From Acidobacteriota bacterium (GTDB lineage Bacteria; Acidobacteriota; Blastocatellia; Pyrinomonadales; Pyrinomonadaceae), in assembly GCA_020853255.1 (NCBI GenBank), contig JADYZI010000361.1:1-9608 (forward strand): DNA of 9,608 nt, read 5' to 3'. Both the position numbers and the translations under genes were made by a program. The notes beneath the pieces were generated by a model. It was not told the origin of the DNA. It made no database searches and saw nothing but the letters and a program-made list of their open reading frames with translations. This document shows positions 391-9,411 of this stretch, in pieces. Numbering within the stretch: position 1 is the stretch's first letter; each line of letters begins with the position of its first letter.

Positions 391-3300
391 ATGAGGAAAC
401 TAACGGCAGTATTGGTTTTGGCTTCGGTCTATTTGAGCATTTTTGCTCCGTTTGCAACGGTCGCTTCCGGGCAGGTCGCCGGCAGGCCAAGGGAAAAGAG
501 AATGAATGATATTCCGGCTGGATTCACGTTTCGATTAAGTGAAGGTGTTCAAGGTTCGGAAACCCGGACCGTGCAGCCGCCGGCGACGGCTGAGCCTATC
601 TCAGAAGATCTGTCGTCGTCGATCTTAAAGCGGCTTCCCGCGATAAAGTCCGACCCAAGCGACCAGACGGAGTTTTCAAAACGCATCGGAACGCTGCCGG
701 CACCGAAAACCGGGAATCGCATTTCCATAAAATTTCCTGCCGATGCAGACAGGGCATTGCCGAATACAGCCGGCACTAATACGTCGCTTGAAGTTCTACG
801 TTTTTCGCCGGAAGGAGAGGTACCGCTGGCGCCGGACCTGAGCGTTACCTTCTCACAGCCGATGGTGGCCGTCACATCACAGGAAGAAGCGGCAAAATAT
901 GCACCTATCGAGTTCGCGCCGCAGGTAGAAGGCCGGTGGCGTTGGCTTGGGACAAAAACGCTGATGTTCGATACGGACAAACGCTTCCCAATGGCAACCA
1001 AGTTTACCGCTCGCATACCCGCCGGGACAAAGTCTGCGACCGGACAGACGCTGGCGAAAGATTTCTCATGGACATTTACGACTCCGCCGCCAAAGGTTGA
1101 ACAGATGATCCCAGCGAATCAGGTCGTTCGGCGCGATGCGTTGATGTTCATTCGCTTTGACCAGGCGATAAACCCCGAAGCGGTACTGAGGACAATCTCC
1201 GTACTTGCCGGCGGGCGAAAGTTGGCCACGCGTTTGGCCACCGAGGCCGAGATCGCCGCCGACGGCAATATTTCATATCACGCCAAGCAAACGCAGCCCG
1301 GCCGTTGGGTCGCATTCAGGGCAGTAAATGCTAATGGCGGCGTCGAAGACGCAATGCCCGGAGCCTCGACCATTACAGTGAATGTGGAGAAAGGCACGCC
1401 ATCGGCCGAAGGGCCGCTGACAACCGTTGAACGCCAGCCTTTTCAGTTCACAACTTACGGGCCGTTCAAGTACAAGCGATCGTATTGCGGTTGGGAAAGC
1501 AAGCCCGATTGCTCGCCGTTTGATGCGTGGTACGTCGAATTTAATAACCCGATCGACAGCGGAAAGTTTGCTAAGGAAATGGTCAAGGTTGAACCCGCCG
1601 TCGAAGGGTTGAGTATCTATCCTTCGGGGAATTACATATATTTTCAAGGCTACAAAAAAGGGAATACGACGTACAAGATAACCGTCGACGGCGGCCTGAC
1701 GGACAATTTCGGCCAAACTCTGGGCCAGCCCGCCGTAGCAGCGTTCAAGGTCGGGCCCGCACCCCAGAATTTCTACGCCCAGGGCGGTTCGATGGTCGTG
1801 CTTGACCCCGGGTCAAAGCCGACATTTTCGATCTACACCACAAATCATTCGAATGCCCGCGTGCGGATGTATCGTGTAACACCCGAAAACTGGTATCAGT
1901 TCACACAGTATTTTCGGCGAATGAACTACGACGACGGCGAACGCCCAGCCATTCCCGGATCGCTTATTTCTGAAACGGTCGTTCCGATCAAGAACGTTCA
2001 GGATGAACTGGTCGAAACACGGATCGACCTCAGCGCGGCCCTGCCCGGCGGGCTTGGCAACATCATTCTCGATGTCGAGCCGACGGTCAAACGAGATAAA
2101 TACGACCGTTCACGCGTTTTTACATGGGTTCAGGGCACGCATATCGGGCTTGATGCGTTCGTGGATAATGAGGAGCTAGTTGGTTTTGCGACTGATCTCG
2201 CAACGGGCAAGGCCCTGAACGGTGTGCAGTTGTCGATCTATCCTAACGGCGCCGTTAGTTCAGTGATGCCTAACGGCAGCGTGCCGACCGAACAAACCGG
2301 CTGGATCGAGTCCGCATGGGAATGGATCGCCGGTTCAGGCGGCCCAAGCGCGGGCGATATTACTTCATTCAACCCCGACGGAACGCAGGCCGAAAGTGAG
2401 ACCATCGAGCCCGCGCAATCAAATTCCACAGGTCCCGGCGGCATTCTCCGCCTCGCGCTGCCCGAAACGCCGTCGAACAAGGGAATGAGCCTTCTTGTCG
2501 CAAAACGCGGCAGCGATACTGCGTTTCTGCCTGAGAATACCGAATACTATTGGCAGGACACCGGCAGTTGGTATAAAAGGGCCAGTTCGGATTCGCTCCG
2601 CTGGTTCGTCTTTGACGACCGAGGAATGTACAAGCCAAACGAGGAAGTCTCGGTCAAGGGATACATCCGCCGGATAACGGGCGGAAAGCTTGGCGATGTC
2701 GAAGGGCTCGGCGATGCAGCGAGCGGGCTTACCTGGTCCGTCAAAGACCCGCGAAACAATGAGATCGCGAAAGGCGAAGGAACGCTCAATGCATTTGGTG
2801 CTTTCGATCTCAAGTTCAAACTGCCCGACAACGTAAACCTCGGCTATGCCCGGATCGATCTGCATACGAACGGTAAGGTCAGCGGCGAAAACCATTCGCA
2901 TCAGTTCCAGATACAGGAATTTCGCCGGCCTGAGTTTGAGGTTACGGCCAAGGTCGAAACGGAAGCACCGCATCTTGTCGGCGGCCACGCGATTTTGTCG
3001 GTCGATGCTAAATACTACGCCGGCGGTGGCTTGCCGAACGCCGAAGCCAACTGGACCGTCACCGCGACGCCGACCAACTACACACCACCCAACCGCGGCG
3101 ATTTCACGTTTGGCACATGGGTGGCGTGGTGGGGCCGATATGATTACAACAGGCCGTATGGCGGCACGACGCAGAATTTTAAGGGCGTTACCGATACCGA
3201 AGGCCGCCATTTGCTCCGGATCGATTTCGATTCGGTCAAACCGCCGCGGCCATACACCATCAGCGCCAGCGCTTCGGTCCAGGATGTAAATCGGCAGACG

Positions 3301-6300
3301 TTTGCCGGCCGAACGTCGATGCTTGTCCATCCGGCGGACCTGTATGTCGGCATCAGAACGCCGAGCACGTTCGTCCAGAAGGGCGAGGCCATCAATGTTG
3401 AATCCATCGTTACTGACATCGACGGCAAGCTGATCCCGAACCGTGATATCGAGATAAAGGCCGTGCTCAAGGATTGGCAGTTCGACAAAGGCTCGTGGAA
3501 TGAGGTCACGGTCGACGAACAGACCTGCACAGTTAAGTCAGAACCGCCTGCGTCAGCAGGCGGCCAGTATGCCGGAGTAGCAAAGTGTTCCTTTACCGCA
3601 AAAGCTGGCGGCCGGTACACCGTCACCGCAACGGTCATGGACGACCGTGAGCGGCCAAACGAAAGCGAATTCACCATCTGGGTTCCCGGCGGAAAGCAGC
3701 CGCCGAAACGAAATGTTGAGCAGGAAGAAGTGCAGATCATTCCTAATAAGAAGGACTATGCACCTGGTGAGACGGCCGAACTTTTGGTGATCGCGCCCTT
3801 TGCGGAGCCATCCGGAAACCGGCGGACTGAGGTCCGAGTTCCGGTTGAAGGCGTGCTGACGCTCCGCCGCGATGGGATCGTTAAAACCGAGCGGTTTACG
3901 ATGAAGGATTCCTCGATCACATTGAAGATCCCACTCGATGAAACGTATTTGCCGAACATCAACGCCCAGGTCGATCTTGTCGGCTCGGCGGAACGGAACG
4001 CTGCCGTCCCGGCTGCGGCCGGACGGCGAGACGCCGGAGCTCCGCGCCCGGCGTTTGCAAGCGGCAATATCAACCTTTCCATCTCAACCGCTTCGCGAAA
4101 GCTTACGGTATCCGCTGAACCAAAGGACAAAACGCTTGTCCCCGGCGGCGAAACAAAAGTCGATATCGAGGTAAAGGACAACGCCGGTGAACCGGTCGCG
4201 AACAGCGAGGTTGCCGTCGTGATCGTCGATGAGTCGGTGCTTGCTCTCTCCGGCTATTCGATCGCTGACCCAATGTCCATCTTCTACACGCCGCGCGGGA
4301 CCGGGACGACCGATCATCATCTGCGGAAGGATGTTCTGCTTGGAAATCCGGATGATGTTAATCCACCACCGCCTCCGCCGTCACCCGTTGCTAGCGAGGG
4401 GGCGTCGACTGATTCCTTCTCCGGCCGACAATCGCTTCCAACCGCTGGCAGGGCGGGGCGGTCGGAATTGAAGATGGCCGCGAAAGCCTCGGATCCTTCC
4501 AATGGTTCACGAATTTACCTCCCGGAGGGCGAGGCTCCGATCGACCTGCGCGAAAACTTCGACGCCCTCGCTGTTTGGTCGCCATCGGTCAAGACCGACT
4601 CGAACGGCCGTGCAATCGTTGATGTAAAACTGCCGGACAACCTGACCCGTTACCGGATCACCGCCGTTTCCGTCGATCAGGGCAAGCGTTTCGGCAGATC
4701 GGAATCGAACATCACAGCAAAGAAACCGCTTATGGTCCGCCCGAGCGCTCCGCGGTTTATGAACTTTGGCGATCGTGTCGAGCTTCCTGTCGTTGTCCAG
4801 AATCAAACCGATCAGGACATGACGGTTGACGTGGCGGTCCGCGCTACGAATGCCCGCCTGTCAGAACCAGGAGCGATAGCGACTGGGTTCCCAGACGCTG
4901 GCCTGAAGAACCCAGTCGCTACCGCTCCCGATTCCGACTCGGATGGGAAGCGCGTTCTCGTCAAAGCCAACAGCCGCGAGGAGGTGCGGTTCCCTGTCAG
5001 CACCATAAAAGCCGGTACCGCCCGATTCCAGATCGCGGTCACTTCCGGCAAGCACAACGACGCGGCCGAGATCTCGCTGCCCGTCTGGACACCGGCAACG
5101 ACCGAGGCGTTTGCAACCTACGGCACGACCGATCAGGACGGAGCGATCATTCAACCCGTCCAGGCTCCCGGCGATGTCTATCCGCAATTTGGCGGGCTTG
5201 AGATAACGACGAGTTCTACCCAATTGCAAGAGCTGACGGACGCATACATTTATCTCGCGAATTATCCATACGAATGCTCCGAGCAGATCGCGTCGAGAAT
5301 GATCTCGACCGCGGCCCTTCGCGATGTATTGAACGCCTTCAAAGCCAAAGATATGCCGTCCGCGGCCGAGCTTGAGGCAAGATTCAAACGCGATATTCAG
5401 ATCCTGCAATCCCGCCAACGCGAAGACGGCAGTTTTGGGCTCTGGCAAAAAGAACGGGAACGATACGAGTATCCGTTCCTTACCGTCCACGTCGCTCACG
5501 CACTTGCTCTGGCAAAAGAGAAGGGCTACAAAGTGCCGGACGAGATGCTTAACCGGACGAAACCGTACCTGAGCAATATCGAAAGCCACATGAACGACCA
5601 GTGGCACAAGGCCTCGCCGCAGGCGCGCTGGACAATTTCGGCATACGCACTCTATGTCCGTGATCTCATGGGCGATAAAGATGCCGGCAAGGCTAAAAAC
5701 CTTTTGGCCGAAGGCAGGTCAGAACCGTCTGCGTCAGCGAGCGGCCAGTCCGCTGTTCTATACAACACGCGTATGCCCTTCGAGGCACTCGGCTGGATCC
5801 TCTCGGTTCTCGCTGGCGACAAAAGCTCTGCCGCCGAGGTCGGGTCGATCATACGATTCCTGACGAATCGAACAACCGAAACAGCTTCCACCGCCAATTT
5901 CGTGACAGATTACGGCGATGGCGGCTGGCTGATCATGTACTCAAACCGCCGAGCGGACGGCGTGCTGCTGGAAGCGCTGATCAAAACGTCGGAACGCGGA
6001 CTTCAGTCCGCAAGCGGGCGGACTGAAGTCCGCGTTCCGACCGATAACCTCATCCCCAAGCTCGTCCGCGGCCTGCTGGCCCATCGCAAAAAAGGCCATT
6101 GGGGTTCGACGCAGGAGAATGTATTTATCCTGCTGGCGCTCGACAAATACTTCAACGCGTTCGAAAAGGTCACGCCTGATTTTGTCACACGTATCTGGCT
6201 TGGGAGCACATACGCGGGCGAGGAAGCGTTCAAAGGCCGCTCGGTGGATTCGAATGTGCTGAACATTCCAATGTCGTACCTGTTGGGGAATGCTGCGGTA

Positions 6301-6924
6301 GCGGTGGAGGGACGCAAGGACGTTGGCGTTCCGCTCATCATCGACCGTCAGGGAGCGGGAAGGCTGTATTACCGGATCGGGATGAAGTATGCGCCGAAGA
6401 ACTTGAAACTGGAACCCGCCGATTACGGCTTTACGGTACTGAGAAAATATGAGGCGATCGATAATAAGGACGATGTAAAACACAACGCGGACGGGAGTTG
6501 GACGATCAAGTCCGGCGCCCGTGTTCGCATCCGCCTGACGATGGTTGCGCAGGCTAGGCGTTATCACGTTGCACTTGTCGACAGTTTACCGGCCGGACTT
6601 GAGATATTAAATCCGGAACTCAAAACGACTGAAGCCATCCCGCCCGACACCGGCGGAGGGAACACGGGCGTGGTCGAGGTAGGCAGCAGATCGTACGGCC
6701 GCAACTACTATTGGTGGCGTTGGAACTGGTTTGAACATCAGAATTTCCGCGACGAACGTGCCGAGGCTTTCTCATCACTGCTGTGGGAAGGCGTTTATAA
6801 CTACACCTACGTCACAAGAGCAACGACGCCCGGCCAGTTCGTAGTCCCGCCCGCAAAAGCTGAAGAGATGTACGCTCCGGAAACCTTCGGCCGGACCGGT
6901 ACTGATTTTGTCACCGTAGAGTGA
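391..6924 (+). CDS. Secreted thioester-containing alpha-2-macroglobulin family protein
   Basis: A giant protease-trap protein of 2177 aa, versus about 1650 in E. coli YfhM. The ATG at 391 is preferred because it opens directly on a signal peptide (residues 1-27, MRKLTAVLVLASVYL..., cleavage near VASG|Q), with GAGGG at 373-377, a rather long 13 nt upstream. A TTG at 328 would add 21 unlikely residues. Domains in order: SbsA/Big_5-like Ig domains (about 127-460, with a C366/C374 pair); macroglobulin domains including the conserved WFVFDDRGMYKPNE (738-751) and FRRPEFEV (844-851); a bait-region-type domain with VVIVDESVLAL (1276-1286); a Pro-rich candidate bait (about 1320-1374); the A2M core starting RENFDALAVW (1387); the thioester CSEQ (C1629, Q1632) and its helical toroid, including HWGSTQEN (1903-1910); and a C-terminal MG10-like domain to 2177. 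No lipobox cysteine follows the signal peptide, so it is predicted soluble, unlike YfhM. No pbpC partner is in the window. Several palindromic repeats are translated within it. Confidence 0.93.
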   Translation: MRKLTAVLVLASVYLSIFAPFATVASGQVAGRPREKRMNDIPAGFTFRLSEGVQGSETRTVQPPATAEPISEDLSSSILKRLPAIKSDPSDQTEFSKRIGTLPAPKTGNRISIKFPADADRALPNTAGTNTSLEVLRFSPEGEVPLAPDLSVTFSQPMVAVTSQEEAAKYAPIEFAPQVEGRWRWLGTKTLMFDTDKRFPMATKFTARIPAGTKSATGQTLAKDFSWTFTTPPPKVEQMIPANQVVRRDALMFIRFDQAINPEAVLRTISVLAGGRKLATRLATEAEIAADGNISYHAKQTQPGRWVAFRAVNANGGVEDAMPGASTITVNVEKGTPSAEGPLTTVERQPFQFTTYGPFKYKRSYCGWESKPDCSPFDAWYVEFNNPIDSGKFAKEMVKVEPAVEGLSIYPSGNYIYFQGYKKGNTTYKITVDGGLTDNFGQTLGQPAVAAFKVGPAPQNFYAQGGSMVVLDPGSKPTFSIYTTNHSNARVRMYRVTPENWYQFTQYFRRMNYDDGERPAIPGSLISETVVPIKNVQDELVETRIDLSAALPGGLGNIILDVEPTVKRDKYDRSRVFTWVQGTHIGLDAFVDNEELVGFATDLATGKALNGVQLSIYPNGAVSSVMPNGSVPTEQTGWIESAWEWIAGSGGPSAGDITSFNPDGTQAESETIEPAQSNSTGPGGILRLALPETPSNKGMSLLVAKRGSDTAFLPENTEYYWQDTGSWYKRASSDSLRWFVFDDRGMYKPNEEVSVKGYIRRITGGKLGDVEGLGDAASGLTWSVKDPRNNEIAKGEGTLNAFGAFDLKFKLPDNVNLGYARIDLHTNGKVSGENHSHQFQIQEFRRPEFEVTAKVETEAPHLVGGHAILSVDAKYYAGGGLPNAEANWTVTATPTNYTPPNRGDFTFGTWVAWWGRYDYNRPYGGTTQNFKGVTDTEGRHLLRIDFDSVKPPRPYTISASASVQDVNRQTFAGRTSMLVHPADLYVGIRTPSTFVQKGEAINVESIVTDIDGKLIPNRDIEIKAVLKDWQFDKGSWNEVTVDEQTCTVKSEPPASAGGQYAGVAKCSFTAKAGGRYTVTATVMDDRERPNESEFTIWVPGGKQPPKRNVEQEEVQIIPNKKDYAPGETAELLVIAPFAEPSGNRRTEVRVPVEGVLTLRRDGIVKTERFTMKDSSITLKIPLDETYLPNINAQVDLVGSAERNAAVPAAAGRRDAGAPRPAFASGNINLSISTASRKLTVSAEPKDKTLVPGGETKVDIEVKDNAGEPVANSEVAVVIVDESVLALSGYSIADPMSIFYTPRGTGTTDHHLRKDVLLGNPDDVNPPPPPPSPVASEGASTDSFSGRQSLPTAGRAGRSELKMAAKASDPSNGSRIYLPEGEAPIDLRENFDALAVWSPSVKTDSNGRAIVDVKLPDNLTRYRITAVSVDQGKRFGRSESNITAKKPLMVRPSAPRFMNFGDRVELPVVVQNQTDQDMTVDVAVRATNARLSEPGAIATGFPDAGLKNPVATAPDSDSDGKRVLVKANSREEVRFPVSTIKAGTARFQIAVTSGKHNDAAEISLPVWTPATTEAFATYGTTDQDGAIIQPVQAPGDVYPQFGGLEITTSSTQLQELTDAYIYLANYPYECSEQIASRMISTAALRDVLNAFKAKDMPSAAELEARFKRDIQILQSRQREDGSFGLWQKERERYEYPFLTVHVAHALALAKEKGYKVPDEMLNRTKPYLSNIESHMNDQWHKASPQARWTISAYALYVRDLMGDKDAGKAKNLLAEGRSEPSASASGQSAVLYNTRMPFEALGWILSVLAGDKSSAAEVGSIIRFLTNRTTETASTANFVTDYGDGGWLIMYSNRRADGVLLEALIKTSERGLQSASGRTEVRVPTDNLIPKLVRGLLAHRKKGHWGSTQENVFILLALDKYFNAFEKVTPDFVTRIWLGSTYAGEEAFKGRSVDSNVLNIPMSYLLGNAAVAVEGRKDVGVPLIIDRQGAGRLYYRIGMKYAPKNLKLEPADYGFTVLRKYEAIDNKDDVKHNADGSWTIKSGARVRIRLTMVAQARRYHVALVDSLPAGLEILNPELKTTEAIPPDTGGGNTGVVEVGSRSYGRNYYWWRWNWFEHQNFRDERAEAFSSLLWEGVYNYTYVTRATTPGQFVVPPAKAEEMYAPETFGRTGTDFVTVE
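2243..2258. repeat. 16-bp perfect palindrome with nearby direct repeat
   Basis: CTAACGGC (2243-2250) is followed immediately by its reverse complement GCCGTTAG (2251-2258). CCTAACGGC occurs again as a direct repeat at 2269-2277. The region encodes two PNG motifs (YPNGAV and MPNGSV) at the start of a low-complexity Gly/Ser/Asn stretch between two macroglobulin domains. It may be a minor repeat expansion in a linker. It does not match the other palindrome families in this gene. Confidence 0.4.
3538..3568 (+). repeat. In-frame palindromic element, family 1 copy A
   Basis: The unit begins TCAGAACC and contains a perfect hairpin: CCGCCTGC (3544-3551), loop GTCA, GCAGGCGG (3556-3563), then CCAGT. 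It is translated as SEPPASAGGQ (residues 1050-1059 of the macroglobulin) between two cysteines of an Ig-like domain, apparently in a loop. It matches copy B at 5719-5749 at 28 of 31 bases and is read in the same codon phase. Classification as a dispersed element is inferred from the two copies plus the symmetry. Confidence 0.75.
3812..3844 (+). repeat. Decayed half-copy of the RTEVRVP palindromic element (family 2)
   Basis: Bases 3821-3843 match 6017-6039, the right arm of the large palindrome, at 21 of 23 positions, and both are translated RTEVRVP in the same phase (here residues 1145-1151). The left arm is mostly missing. Only CCGGAA (3812-3817) remains to pair with TTCCGG (3839-3844). The encoded stretch interrupts what reads as a conserved strand pair, APFAEP...VEGVLTLRRDGI, which supports a later insertion that has since shrunk. 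Confidence 0.65.
3995..4055 (+). repeat. In-frame double-hairpin element (family 3)
   Basis: Two adjacent stem-loops are seen. The first pairs GCCGTCCCGGC (4003-4013) with GCCGGACGGC (4018-4027), with one bulged C and loop TGCG. The second pairs ACGCCGG (4031-4037) with CCGGCGT (4048-4054) and contains the palindrome GGAGCTCC (4036-4043). AACGC (3997-4001) and GCGTT (4051-4055) could close the whole unit. The translation, AERNAAVPAAAGRRDAGAP, is alanine/arginine-rich and sits between LVG and the PAFASGNINL strand, probably in a loop. Only one copy is present in the window. Confidence 0.55.
4348..4512 (+). other. Candidate bait region of the macroglobulin
   Basis: Residues about 1320-1374 follow the VDESVLAL...FYTPRG domain and precede the RENFDALAVW core, which is where the protease-cleaved bait lies in animal alpha-2-macroglobulins. 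The stretch has six consecutive prolines (1325-1330), then a Ser/Gly/Ala-rich segment with scattered Arg and Lys (SGRQSLPTAGRAGRSELKMAAK in part). It looks disordered and protease-accessible. An imperfect palindrome, CCCGTTGC-TA-GCGAGGGG (4384-4401), lies inside. The bait position in bacterial homologues is less settled, so the limits are approximate. Confidence 0.45.
4861..4928 (+). repeat. In-frame 21-bp inverted repeat, family 1-like copy C
   Basis: The left arm at 4870-4890 (begins GGAGCGATAGCG) pairs with the right arm at 4908-4928 (ends CTACCGCTCC) at 20 of 21 positions, the exception being A4876 against C4922. The 17-nt loop holds its own CCAG-ACG-CTGG hairpin. It opens with TCAGAACC (4861-4868), as copies A and B do, in the same codon phase, and is translated SEPGAIATGFPDAG... 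(from residue 1491). It lies between ATNARL and KRVLVKANSREEVRF in the A2M core, probably a loop. Confidence 0.8.
5275..5286 (+). other. Thioester motif CSEQ
   Basis: Codons for Cys1629-Ser-Glu-Gln1632 lie in the context NYPYECSEQIASRM. In thioester proteins of this superfamily (GCGEQ in complement and A2M, CLEQ in E. coli YfhM) the Cys and Gln form the internal thioester that covalently captures the attacking protease. Both residues and the intervening Glu are present, so the thioester is predicted to be functional. This separates the protein from bacterial homologues that lack the cysteine. Confidence 0.87.
5719..5749 (+). repeat. In-frame palindromic element, family 1 copy B
   Basis: It matches copy A (3538-3568) at 28 of 31 bases with no gap. 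The hairpin has decayed: CCGTCTGC (5725-5732) and GCGAGCGG (5737-5744) around the same GTCA loop now pair with two G-T wobbles and one mismatch. It is translated SEPSASASGQ (residues 1777-1786), in the same codon phase as copy A, between two helices of the thioester toroid (after KNLLAEGR and before MPFEALGWIL). Confidence 0.72.
5988..6041 (+). repeat. Perfect 24-bp inverted repeat in frame (family 2, full copy)
   Basis: The left arm at 5988-6011 (starts GTCGGAACGCGG) and the right arm at 6018-6041 (ends CCGCGTTCCGAC) are perfectly complementary over 24 bp, with a 6-nt loop AAGCGG. Each arm contains a smaller quasi-palindrome, GGACTTCAGTCC or GGACTGAAGTCC, so the unit could also fold as a cruciform-like pair. 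It is translated as SERGLQSASG-RTEVRVPTD (from residue 1867) in a loop of the thioester domain, between LLEALIKT and NLIPKLVRGLL. Confidence 0.88.
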
Positions 6925-6951
6925 TCGATATAGGATCGAAGGGCGAAAAAG

Positions 6952-6971
6952 GACGCCAATCGTTTGGCGTC
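6952..6971. terminator. Hairpin terminator between convergent genes
   Basis: GACGCCAA (6952-6959), loop TCGT, and TTGGCGTC (6964-6971) form a perfect 8-bp stem. It sits 27 nt after the macroglobulin stop and 3 nt beyond the stop of the minus-strand gene. Read on the minus strand the stem is followed by CTTTTTC, a short U-run. On the plus strand it is followed by GCTTTAGTT, a poorer one. It is most likely a terminator for the minus-strand gene that may serve both. Confidence 0.65.
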
Positions 6972-6974
6972 GCT

Positions 6975-7424
6975 TTAGTTAAAATAGAGAAACGCGGCGA
7001 TCTTGATCAAAATACCGGAAATAAAGAGGAGCAATGCGATGGCGCCGAAGAATTTGAATATCCACCCTGAAGGCGAACCGCTGAATGCCCGCCAAAGGCC
7101 TTCGAGGATGCCCATGAGGCCAAGCAGGAAGATGCCGAGCAGGGGCGGAGCGAAAAACGCAAGTTGAAATAGATCGCGGTCAGTTAGCGACTTGCTTCGA
7201 AGGCCTGCAACGGCGCCGAGAATAAGAAAAACCGCACCCATCATTGCTGTCAGCACCAAGCTGACCGTGATGAGCATTATGCCGTTCACCCGGATCTGCT
7301 CTTCGGTCCTAAGACTGTGTTTACGACACTTTGGGCACGGCACAAGCTCGTGGTAGCGAAAGTCACAGTTGAGGCACATGTACTTTCCTCTCGTGCTAGT
7401 ATTTCTGGGCTGATGTATTCTCAT
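6975..7424 (-). CDS. Zinc-ribbon membrane protein with three TM helices
   Basis: 149 aa, function unknown. An N-terminal zinc ribbon has ligands C17-LN-C20 and C30-PK-C33 in the setting GKYMCLNC...VPCPKC. It is followed by hydrophobic segments at about 48-74, 86-108 and 121-146, so the ribbon should face one side of the inner membrane with three spans after it. The start at 7424 is chosen for its GAGG 7 nt upstream and because it keeps the G-x-Y residues that often precede the first zinc knuckle. A start at 7379 (MCLNC) also has AGAGG 7 nt upstream and would give 134 aa. An extension to 7487 is open but looks non-native. It is convergent with the macroglobulin and divergent from the next gene, so probably transcribed alone. 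Zinc binding is inferred from the Cys spacing; no partner is evident. Confidence 0.75.
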   Translation of the reverse strand: MRIHQPRNTSTRGKYMCLNCDFRYHELVPCPKCRKHSLRTEEQIRVNGIMLITVSLVLTAMMGAVFLILGAVAGLRSKSLTDRDLFQLAFFAPPLLGIFLLGLMGILEGLWRAFSGSPSGWIFKFFGAIALLLFISGILIKIAAFLYFN

Positions 7425-7497
7425 TAGACCGCCTCGTGAATTGCCGTCAGATTGATAACTTGACGATCCGCGCGCCGGCTTTTGCACATCGAAGCTG

Positions 7498-7506
7498 TGC
7501 TAGAAT
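7498..7506 (+). promoter_or_regulatory. Extended -10 promoter element, possibly leaderless start
   Basis: TGCTAGAAT at 7498-7506 fits an extended -10 (TGn plus TAGAAT). The best -35 candidates, around TTTTGC (7480-7485), are weak, as expected for an extended -10. Transcription should begin near 7513, only about 3 nt before the ATG at 7516. No Shine-Dalgarno sequence precedes that ATG, so the mRNA may be leaderless. The prediction rests on pattern alone. Confidence 0.4.
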
Positions 7507-7515
7507 CGACGGTGT

Positions 7516-8367
7516 ATGAGAATGCTGCTGACTTTTCTTTTGTCAATCTTCCTCGCCGCCTCCCTGGCTGCTCAGGACACGGCCCAAAAGATATTTGAGA
7601 CCGAGAAAGGCTTTGAAAAGCTCGTTTCCGAGAGAGGCATTCGTGATGGGTTCATTCAGTTTCTGTCGCCGGCGGGCGTAATGTTCATGCCCGATGCGGT
7701 GAATGCGCGGGAAGCGTGGCGGGCGAGGGCTCCTTCGAACGCGGCTCTGACTTGGAACCCTGTCTGGATCGACGTTTCGGCCAATGGCGCGCTGGCGTAC
7801 AGCATTGGCAATTCACGGTATCGGCCGAAAGGCCGCGACGACAGCGAGATCTTCTACGGCCATTATTTATCTGTCTGGATGAAACAGCCGAACGGCAGGT
7901 TTCTGGCGGCCCTTGACACCGGGATCCGTCACGAAAAGCCGGCGTCGGAACCCGTGGAATTTGGATCGCCCACGGACCTTGGCAAGGGATCGAATCCGGA
8001 AGGCGTGTCCGCTGCCGATTCGGCGGTCGCATTTTATGAGGTCGCCGCGGCATCTGGTGCCGCAAAAGCTTACAAACAGTTTCTAGCTTTCGATGCGATC
8101 GCCCTCCGGGACGGCAAGCTTCCTGCATTTGGCAAAAAAGCTGCGCTATCTCTGGTGAAAAGTACTGACGGAGGCGTCCGTTTCGCAAAACGCAAATCGT
8201 TTACGGAAGCCATTGACCTGGGTTATGTACATAGCGGCTACACGATCGTTGACAGCAAAGGTGTTGAGATCGAAAAGGGCAATTTCGTCCAGGTATGGAA
8301 ATTTCGCAACGGCAAGTGGCTCATAGTTGCCGACGTTCTCGTCCCGCTGCCAAAAAGCGGCGGCTGA
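7516..8367 (+). CDS. Secreted tandem NTF2-like (SnoaL/DUF4440-type) protein
   Basis: 283 aa. Residues 1-19 form a signal peptide (MRMLLTFLLSIFLAASLAA|Q) without a lipobox, so the mature protein is periplasmic or exported. Two cystatin/NTF2-like alpha+beta repeats follow. Repeat one (about 24-140) starts with the helix IFETEKGFEKLVSERG and runs through GFIQFLSPAGVMFMPD to a strand ending YLSVWMKQPNGRFLAALD. Repeat two (about 165-278) starts ADSAVAFYEVAAASG and ends GNFVQVWKFRNGKWLIVADVL, the typical 'W+..+GkW+i' closing strand of this fold. Such domains bind small ligands or catalyse diverse reactions, and no catalytic set can be read here, so no function is assigned. The ATG at 7516 lacks a Shine-Dalgarno; an in-frame ATG at 7522 is an alternative. 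It lies 42 nt before kdsD on the same strand and is probably co-transcribed with it. Confidence 0.82.
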   Translation: MRMLLTFLLSIFLAASLAAQDTAQKIFETEKGFEKLVSERGIRDGFIQFLSPAGVMFMPDAVNAREAWRARAPSNAALTWNPVWIDVSANGALAYSIGNSRYRPKGRDDSEIFYGHYLSVWMKQPNGRFLAALDTGIRHEKPASEPVEFGSPTDLGKGSNPEGVSAADSAVAFYEVAAASGAAKAYKQFLAFDAIALRDGKLPAFGKKAALSLVKSTDGGVRFAKRKSFTEAIDLGYVHSGYTIVDSKGVEIEKGNFVQVWKFRNGKWLIVADVLVPLPKSGG

Positions 8368-8409: not shown

Positions 8410-9411
8410 ATGATCAAAATGAGTTCAGCATCACAGGAAAAGGCCAATTCGGTCCACGCGAGGGTCGTCGAATTGCTTCGTTTGGAAGCGTCGGCGATCG
8501 AACATTCGGCTGTTCGTCTGGATCCTGACAGCGTTGCGGCGGCTGTCTCGGCAATACGGAATTGCGCGGGCAAGATCGTCGTTACCGGCACCGGAAAATC
8601 GGGTGTTATAGCCCAAAAGATCGCGCAAACCCTGACCAGTACCGGAACGGTAGCGATCTATCTGCATCCGTCAGATGCTCTCCACGGCGGGCTGGGCGTG
8701 GTTGCCGCCGGCGATGTTGTCATAGCGCTCAGTAATTCGGGTGAGACGGACGAGATACTGGCGATGATGCCTTCGCTAAAGGCCAGGGAGGTGCAGGTCG
8801 TGGCCATTGTTGGAAACCTTGCATCGAGCCTGGCTCGACAGGCGGCTATAGTGCTCGAAGCGTCGGTCGATCGCGAGGCGTGCCCTCTAAATCTCGCTCC
8901 GACGACATCGACCACAGTTGCCCTGGCGATCGGCGATGCGCTTGCCATGACTCTGATGGAGTCCCGCGGCGTGACAGAGGCGGATTTTGCCGTAAATCAT
9001 CCCGCCGGACGCCTTGGCAAACGGCTTACGCTGCGTGTTGGCGACCTCATGCAGGAAAGTCCGAGTGTTGACCTTGGCACGAGTTGGCTTGAGGTCGTTC
9101 GAACGATCTCAAAATATTCTCTCGGCGCTGTAACGGTCGTGAACGACGACCGCCACCTTGTTGGGATAGTCACGGATGGTGATCTGCGTCGTACTATAGA
9201 ACGCTCCGCGGACGATGGCCTCGCCGGCCTTACGGCCGAACAGATGATGACGACCGGCCCTGTTACGACGACGAAGGCGACGCTCGCGTTCGACGCCATG
9301 CGGTTGATGGAAGACCGTCCATCACAGATCTCTGTGCTGCCTGTCATCGACGAAGCTGGGCAATGTCTTGGGCTGATCCGGCTGCATGATATCGTCCGCA
9401 GTGGATTATAG
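8410..9411 (+). CDS. kdsD: Arabinose-5-phosphate isomerase (KpsF/GutQ family)
   Basis: Interconverts D-ribulose 5-phosphate and D-arabinose 5-phosphate, the first step towards Kdo for lipopolysaccharide, in the cytoplasm. 333 aa, the usual family length. The SIS domain (about 35-205) has GTGKSG (60-65), HPSDALHGGLG (86-96), SNSGETDE (108-115), EACPLNLAPTTSTT (156-169) and NHPAGRLGKRL (196-206). Aligned by eye with E. coli KdsD, the four functionally important residues K59, E111, E152 and H193 correspond to K63, E115, E156 and H197 at a constant +4 offset, so the enzyme should be active. Two CBS domains follow (about 210-264 and 276-333). The start may be ATG 8410 or ATG 8419 (MSSASQ); GGA at 8407-8409 would serve the latter. 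No kdsA, kdsB, kdsC or lpt genes flank it. GutQ or KpsF paralogues are alternative names with the same activity. Confidence 0.93.
   Translation: MIKMSSASQEKANSVHARVVELLRLEASAIEHSAVRLDPDSVAAAVSAIRNCAGKIVVTGTGKSGVIAQKIAQTLTSTGTVAIYLHPSDALHGGLGVVAAGDVVIALSNSGETDEILAMMPSLKAREVQVVAIVGNLASSLARQAAIVLEASVDREACPLNLAPTTSTTVALAIGDALAMTLMESRGVTEADFAVNHPAGRLGKRLTLRVGDLMQESPSVDLGTSWLEVVRTISKYSLGAVTVVNDDRHLVGIVTDGDLRRTIERSADDGLAGLTAEQMMTTGPVTTTKATLAFDAMRLMEDRPSQISVLPVIDEAGQCLGLIRLHDIVRSGL

Follow-up and report, generated by a model that had tools for sequence, protein, structure and literature searches.

Probable REP-type repeats inserted in frame in the loops of a Pyrinomonadaceae alpha-2-macroglobulin gene, and the Y1 transposases linked to their copies in relatives

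The window analyzed here, a stretch of 9,608 nucleotides (nt) from an Acidobacteriota bacterium of the family Pyrinomonadaceae (contig JADYZI010000361.1 of assembly GCA_020853255.1), has as its main gene an open reading frame (ORF), 391..6924 (+), that encodes a bacterial alpha-2-macroglobulin (A2M) of 2177 residues. Its MG2, bait-region, A2M and bMG10 domains score above the Pfam cut-off, and a CSEQ thioester-type motif is present as well. The gene carries a series of short in-frame elements, first described as palindromes, which very probably are repetitive extragenic palindromic (REP)-type repeats served by REP-associated tyrosine transposases (RAYTs). When homologues of the protein were sought, 4392 were scored and 120 listed, and the latter together with the window make up our comparison set (n=121); the organism names, where given, are Acidobacteria, Pyrinomonadaceae or Chloracidobacterium. 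The nearest relative is the metagenome-assembled genome (MAG) SJ253 (genome G001, A2M locus L001), identical at 92% of A2M residues and at 7974/8971 aligned bases across the window. Repeats and RAYTs were counted in 18 relative genomes reached via their A2M loci. The data are MAGs, ORFs were called as the longest open frame, and the element patterns were derived from known copies. One scan of viral contigs returned no viral relative of the A2M host gene.

Seven sites in the gene, numbered S1 to S7 here, hold elements, all on the plus strand. Element A at S1 (3537..3568) is classed as a solo REP with the head GTCAGAACC and an 8-bp hairpin, CCGCCTGC-gtca-GCAGGCGG, and is translated as SEPPASAGGQ. 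Element R1 at S2 (3811..3844; peptide NRRTEVRVPV) is a degenerate half of an R-type pair (..GGCGGACTGAGGTCCGAGTTCCG), and element D at S3 (3994..4055) is a D-type inverted pair with the head GGAACGC followed by GCCGTCCCGGC and with the peptide ERNAAVPAAAGRRDAGAP. Element C at S4 (4860..4938) is a REPIN-like inverted pair whose 31-nt arms, each with a GTCRGAAYC start, enclose a 17-nt spacer; it encodes LSEPGAIATGF..NPVATAP and extends 10 nt beyond the end given in the initial annotation. Element B at S5 (5718..5749; peptide SEPSASASGQ) is a solo REP of the A family with a decayed hairpin. Element R2 at S6 (5988..6041; peptide TSERGLQSASGRTEVRVPT) is a perfect 54-nt REPIN-like pair, GTCGGAAC-GCGGACTtcAGTCCGC / aagcgg / inverse, with 24-nt arms that are 100% complementary. 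The seventh site, a degenerate D-like insert at S7 (6283..6345; peptide GNAAVAVEGRKDVGVP), had been overlooked. A and B are 91% alike, and R1 and R2 85%. By their heads the elements fall into two classes, A, B and C with TCAGAACC and R1, R2 and D with GGAACGC; the full heads are GTCAGAACC and GGA(A/G)CGC, and the classical GTAG or GGAG foot is absent. Every element keeps the frame, as the initial annotation had said. Its further claim that members of a family share codon phase is true within the window, where A, B and C read SEP.. and R1 and R2 read TEVRVP, but not beyond it: in other places, R copies are read in two frames or more (for example ERELQ and NADFSP).

Hairpins were scored with +1 for a match and -2 for a mismatch, and 200 synonymous-codon shuffles of the A2M gene served as the null. 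The scores are 24 for R2, 19 for C, 8 for A, 7 and 7 for D, 6 for R1 and 4 for B. Two hairpins of score at least 12 arose in 0/200 shuffles; the gene's four hairpins of score at least 8 were matched in 45% of shuffles and its two of at least 9 in 30%. Chance palindromes are thus rejected by the shuffles for C and R2, and for the other four via the relatives only. Because the hairpins of A, D, R1 and B are not beyond chance in the 200 synonymous shuffles, the status of these four as elements stands on the relatives. All six sequences initially proposed do lie at their places in the ORF, but only C and R2 are palindromic beyond chance. In 47 A2M genes (265 kb; the window plus 46/56 loci, ten being omitted as distant or as second fragments of one genome) there are 11 palindromes of score at least 13, versus 1.0 expected from synonymous shuffles, and neighbouring ORFs (505 kb) hold 4, versus 0 in shuffles. 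The density in A2M genes is about 5x that in neighbouring ORFs, and 9/13 palindromes fall in A2M genes when the window is excluded (p 0.01). The A2M gene is a hot spot for palindromes and not a typical gene, which agrees with the tolerance hot spot suggested at the outset.

Loop lengths were measured between invariant residues in the 121 proteins. The S1 loop has 10 residues in 89/121 and 19 in the window, the S2 loop 3 residues in 116/121 and 15 in the window, and the S3 loop 17 residues in 100/121 and 20 in the window. At S7 the usual length is 13 residues (113/121) and the window has 22, from which we conclude that this site is an additional decayed insert. The S6 loop has 9 residues in 62/121, the S5 loop is variable (7 residues in 73/121), and the S4 loop has no clear mode (22/121). 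The loops of the window exceed the mode at all seven sites, at S3 by just 3 residues. With our own motif list, recognizable element peptides are found in 34/121 A2M proteins.

At the DNA level, R2 is missing in L001, which has a gap of 45 nt, and in L031, so that the site is empty in close orthologues; of the expectation that empty sites would show gaps matching the units, the absence is borne out, but a 45-nt gap does not equal a 54-nt unit. Other orthologues have something else at S6, namely another repeat (..GFSR..PPKGGT or a near variant) in L042, L048 and L024 and a third type (SADTPVR..DADRSVRAP) in L002, and across orthologues the contents of this site are R-, F- or E-type or none. S4 holds the C repeat in the window and GGCGGAGACCTGAGCGGTAGCGAGG in its 92%-identical sister L001, with close matches to the latter at four more A2M loci (L002, L008, L030, L031) and three other loci (L143, L220, L224). 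Different families at S4 in sister genes suggest replacement at the site rather than simple gain or loss. R1 is present in L001 and L031 too, the S7 insert of L031 is nearer to the D consensus than that of the window, and the B site of L001 holds an undecayed version of the element, B and R1 being worn in the window. The loop comparisons together with the repeats at the DNA level show the same loops filled, empty or occupied by different families. An orthologue search with a repeat-rich 20-kb stretch ran into a repeated gene family, and clean pairs of empty and filled sites did not emerge from it.

The 18 relatives were searched with exact patterns and, as a control, with reversed patterns, which gave 0 matches for R, A/B, C and D. 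The R core palindrome GCGGACTNNAGTCCGC is present in 4/18 relatives (4 copies in G001, 5 in G002, 1 in G003 and 9 in G006) and the D family also in 4/18 (8 copies in G001, one in its own A2M gene and 7 others). The A/B family occurs in 12/18, with 13 copies in G001, one of them in its own A2M gene, and the C family in 14/18, with 34 copies in G001; across the family Pyrinomonadaceae the A/B pattern is found in 27/119 genomes. A and B of the window are identical at 31/32 and 30/32 positions, respectively, to one copy elsewhere in G001, and a C arm is identical at 30/31 to a repeat flanking the RAYT of L137. An alignment of 61 A-like copies has sharp ends, GTCAGAACC...GGCGGCCAG(T), at about 32-33 nt, and C-family copies form +/- inverted pairs, with starts 52-94 nt apart, in G001, G004, G007, G010 and G014. 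In the relatives, then, the units are what REPs are described to be, short hairpins with a conserved 5' foot in several to many copies per genome. Copies in sister genomes and an R2 site that is empty in the nearest orthologues contradict the alternative that the units occur nowhere else and that orthologues carry the same residues as conserved sequence; added to the in-frame position of mobile-type palindromes in loops, they favor the element system that the initial annotation had put forward. Contig C321 of G001 holds compound arrays (L176:2175-2330, 5141-5300, 8901-9065) of successive C-, A- and A'-type repeats at about 60-nt spacing, and the genes around these arrays match one another and several places in relatives. 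In G002, a gene of about 1000 residues (L066/L069, same contig), presumably methionine-synthase-like as judged by eye, has two R-type inserts, one of which is also in G001 (L067).

Matches to PF01797 (Y1_Tnp) number 174 and are spread over 17/18 relatives. We examined the flanks of 79/174, a non-random set (most of those in G001-G006; the best or longest-frame ones elsewhere), and classed them by motif as T-type (GTWLHGD or NVR[TS]NH; n=10), Y-type (LPH.. or DS[LMV]P; n=15) and others (n=54). TCAGAACC stands on both sides within 600 nt at 5/10 T-type loci versus 0/69 others (one-sided in one; Fisher p 1.1e-5), and GGAACGC does so at 6/15 Y-type loci versus 0/64 others (Fisher p 1.8e-5). The foot of the T-type repeats fits CnGA, with GT-CAGA-ACC on both sides of 5/10 T-type loci. 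Four further T-type loci, picked because repeats lay nearby, are flanked on both sides by A-type (L313) or C-type repeats (L315-L317), again with GT-CAGA-ACC, and C-type repeats also flank L104 and L137. From this head-specific flanking by enzyme class we assign A, B and C to T-type and R1, R2 and D to Y-type enzymes as their putative partners. The several unrelated families first described, three in number, thereby reduce to two REP head classes, each with its own candidate RAYT class.

The motifs of the two enzyme classes differ. HUH and Y----Q are found in 10/10 T-type proteins (in two of them, the first match to the motif text falls on a residue other than the catalytic Tyr), and H97, H99, Y158 and Q163 are invariant in the 9 that were aligned; HUH and Y---NP are found in 10/10 tested of the 15 Y-type proteins. 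PF01797 is above cut-off in 6/6 RAYTs tested, including 4/4 T-type, and NF047646 (REP-associated tyrosine transposase) in 2/2 Y-type tested. An AlphaFold2 model of a T-type protein (pLDDT 78) has ISDra2 and IS608-family TnpA as its best PDB matches (TM 0.43-0.50 over the query), with REP-bound TnpA 4er8 at rank 16. At L104 (1434-2030, minus strand), two in-frame copies of the repeat that belongs to a T-type RAYT extend the ORF of this RAYT on its upstream side (SEPGAVATGF..SEPGAVATGF). Conventional short-RAYT loci (L072-L101) are present in these genomes as well; there, the flanking repeats are perfect palindromes of 9 bp with a 2-nt loop (CCGTGGGTT, CCACTAGCT and CCCACCGAT types).

A copies lie inside ORFs in 20/29 cases in G013 and G001, which hold 35, and in 13/25 in four other genomes. 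Together, 33/54 are inside versus 5/34 strong palindromes of sample tiles (p 2e-5), two sets that were gathered differently, and the mainly extragenic position by which REPs are defined does not describe the A family. For C, 14/39 copies are inside ORFs and 5 close to an ORF end, some of these ORFs being short and doubtful, and for D 5/6 are inside. In the tiles plus the A2M loci, A2M genes included, the numbers inside ORFs are 14/19 for E, 6/7 for C, 5/5 for A and 0/6 for short S-type REPs. Among 27 sense A copies in ORFs, which are copies rather than independent events and include the A2M copies of the window and of L001, 26 give a SEPPASAGGQ-like peptide and 1 a different one; the antisense copies are split between two frames (8 and 5). 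Because several sense frames of the A unit can stay open, the bias toward one frame points to protein-level filtering or target phase, of which we favor the former. The variable base of the unit is C in 15 and T in 5 sense copies and A or G in none, a circular result, since ORF calling excludes stops, that gives no support for frame selection. The host ORFs of element copies look HemW-, CarB-, SucD- and RluA-like, with support from PDB searches for CarB, SucD and a HemN/HemW-type radical SAM enzyme. Most clear-cut is a D-type insert of 13 residues in SucD relative to 1euc; the CarB insert makes a net difference of about 7 residues to 1bxr. Downstream of the A2M gene of the window, the sister contig L001, which is collinear otherwise, lacks about 550 nt within 6925-7535, among them the minus-strand ORF 6975-7487. 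At 7944-7975, in a DUF4440 gene (7516-8367), GTCGGAACCCGTGG...CCCACGG resembles a head plus hairpin and may be another in-frame element.

The insertion pattern, the copies, the RAYT linkage in relatives, and the motifs and fold of the enzymes are our observations. We propose from them that the palindromes very probably are REP-type repeats (A and B single hairpins; C, R2 and D inverted pairs; R1 a decayed half) that are mobilized in trans by Y1 HUH transposases (RAYT or TnpA-Y1) of two systems and that survive as in-frame insertions in loops. T-type enzymes, with HUH and Y----Q and hence class 3-like, would carry and move the CnGA-footed GTCAGAACC repeats, and Y-type enzymes, with HUH and Y---NP as in class 2 RAYTs, the GGA(A/G)CGC repeats. 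Recognition of single-stranded hairpins by their foot has been published for other RAYTs (accessible text of PMC8266576) and is suggested here by the flanking repeats. In the transposition step, single-stranded hairpins would insert largely irrespective of where genes lie. Frameshifting insertions, and those that introduce a stop or strike a folded core, would be purged, presumably by purifying selection, and the survivors would add a flexible Pro/Gly/Ala/Ser-rich peptide, from about 10 to 45 residues and probably neutral, to a loop that is presumably at the surface. As flexible peptides in loops survive, loop-rich genes such as A2M would turn into hot spots in which families come and go at the same loops and old inserts decay, as B and R1 appear to have done.

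A number of results weigh against this proposal or limit it. Copy counts and RAYT linkage come from the relatives only and not from the source genome of the window, and the RAYT loci were chosen non-randomly. There is no two-sided head at 5/10 T-type and 9/15 Y-type loci; one-sided GGAACGC is uninformative, since it occurs at 12/64 other loci and is contained in 31% of 1300-nt windows of G006 (3.7% for TCAGAACC); and NF047646 is below cut-off for 3/3 T-type proteins tested. In 400 kb of G006, 23 palindromes score at least 14, with 2 inside ORFs, 14 intergenic and 7 at edges, and in 150 kb of G001 there are 11, with 3 inside ORFs, 6 intergenic and 2 at edges; one shuffle of each locus gave none of this score. 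Strong palindromes overall are mostly extragenic, and intragenic abundance is confined to some families. In the tiles plus A2M loci, R copies are inside ORFs in 2/9 cases. Some of the ORFs in which copies were counted as inside (antisense frame 0, repeat arrays) are probably spurious. The S-type REP control, with 2/15 inside ORFs, is weak and was dropped as a main argument because 10/15 of its copies flank RAYTs. At the orthologous loops, element D at S3 largely substitutes for the usual sequence instead of lengthening the loop, the net gain in length at R2 (+45 nt) and at the D loop (+3 residues) differs from the unit length, and neither an exact pre-insertion sequence nor a target duplication was recovered in the orthologue comparison.

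Several other explanations have to be set against the one we propose. The loops might be ordinary hypervariable ones, unconstrained linkers that drift and expand by slippage, with GC-rich codons yielding chance hairpins; four of six hairpins are indeed not beyond chance, and S4 without a clear modal length and the variable S5 are as this explanation would have them. We nevertheless consider it highly improbable, given that the same units occur at 30/31 and 31/32 identity elsewhere in relatives, also in unrelated genes, that 61 A-like copies have sharp ends, that reversed controls are 0 and that the units flank RAYTs. It also seems quite improbable that the hairpins or peptides were recruited adaptively and kept for a function such as mRNA attenuation, pausing or the tuning of a protease-bait loop. 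The roughly 5x enrichment in A2M genes and the single frame of 26/27 sense A copies speak for such a role, but families are exchanged or lost between close relatives, not much of a hairpin remains in B and R1, and the same peptides stand in HemW-, CarB- and RluA-like ORFs without a common function.

The compound arrays of contig C321 and the swap of families at S4 would also fit a spread by recombination or gene conversion, and the half or more of T- and Y-type loci that lack a matching two-sided flank would fit either this or an unrelated transposase, RAYTs then being merely near REPs. Such a spread is unlikely in our judgment. Flanking is head-specific by enzyme class and subtype-specific as well (A at L313; C at L137 and L315-L317), and the REP-RAYT biochemistry in the accessible text of PMC8266576 likewise favors mobilization by RAYTs.

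RAYTs themselves are found within an enzyme in these genomes. In 4/18 relatives (L162-L165) a RAYT lies in frame in an acetyl-CoA-synthetase-like ORF of 959-1059 residues, adjoined by peptides such as SADTPVR..DADKSVRAP. Among the 120 of 7648 matches listed for the chimera, 69 carry PF01797 together with AMP-binding domains. In the 64 chimeras that could be parsed, HUH is intact in 64/64 and Y---NP in 62/64, and the embedded RAYT, which occupies three or more sites overall, is in the middle of the enzyme in 41, near the N-terminus in 13 and in the C-terminal part in 6, with 4 not assigned. In 8rpk, the conserved blocks around the middle site are 7 residues apart, and in many acetyl-CoA synthetase homologues that have no RAYT the same loops contain element peptides, which belong to many families. 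The RAYTs of the chimeras have an amino-acid identity of 0.54-0.73 in six pairs; their synonymous sites are saturated, and dN/dS gave no usable ratio.

Intragenic REPs and class 3 TnpA-Y1 have both been published, and the kind of system described here is therefore already known. As reported in the accessible text of PMC6006769, class 3 TnpA-Y1 has HUH, Y----Q, CnGA-footed repeats in many genomic copies, and Acidobacteria hosts. The T-type enzymes resemble it in HUH, Y----Q, the CnGA foot (CAGA) and Acidobacteria hosts, a likeness by motif and foot rather than by the profile of those authors; that text describes no coding insertions, whereas many copies here are in frame in genes. REPs inside RAYT genes without loss of frame are reported in it too (PMC6006769). 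Intragenic GTAG/CGTC REPs and their dimers, in frame, encoding 20-30 residues and at times present twice per gene, are known mostly from Opitutus terrae and R. conorii (accessible text of PMC3733652). The elements of the window are like these in lying in frame in genes, in forming dimers and in hitting a gene repeatedly; they differ in their feet, in belonging to two systems and in occupying seven sites of a single gene, with turnover, and REPs are mostly intergenic there. REPINs and classical REPtrons (PMC3116915, PMC8266576, in part) share with our system inverted REP pairs, RAYTs flanked by their own REPs and Y---NP enzymes, but here the GTAG-type foot is absent and the A family is not chiefly extragenic. 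The Rickettsia palindromic elements (RPEs), cited at first as the precedent, are palindromes translated within conserved genes (PMC10969869, PMC2229807, PMC6649704). They are alike in this respect, but the nearest published precedent is the intragenic REPs; the two precedents overlap, since RPE-4 and RPE-6 are counted as intragenic R. conorii REPs (PMC3733652). The accessible text of those three papers names no mobilizing enzyme for the Rickettsia elements, whereas candidate transposases are linked to the elements here. Movement of coding palindromes by transposases has been hypothesized, without experimental support in the accessible text of PMC2229807. The open-licence literature, with incomplete coverage, yielded no class 3 repeats as coding insertions, no loop-by-loop turnover of families in one gene and no whole in-frame RAYTs in acetyl-CoA synthetase, and none of its listed matches dealt with coding REPs in Pyrinomonadaceae or with RAYT-CoA-synthetase chimeras.

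With elements and candidate enzymes together in one group of genomes, and with filled and empty orthologous sites, the spread of coding palindromes becomes testable. The copies also provide a natural set of in-frame insertions that enzymes apparently tolerate, and they call for caution, in that an insertion in a loop may in these genomes reflect mobile DNA and not adaptation. The finding points in addition to transposase-enzyme chimeras. We suggest, tentatively and as a possibility that we would not yet bet on, that the REP/RAYT system of Pyrinomonadaceae may have adapted to coding genes, with loop-compatible peptides in a preferred frame and with the transposase carried in frame in a host enzyme, so that a mobile element would persist not as a parasite between genes but as a translated protein domain.

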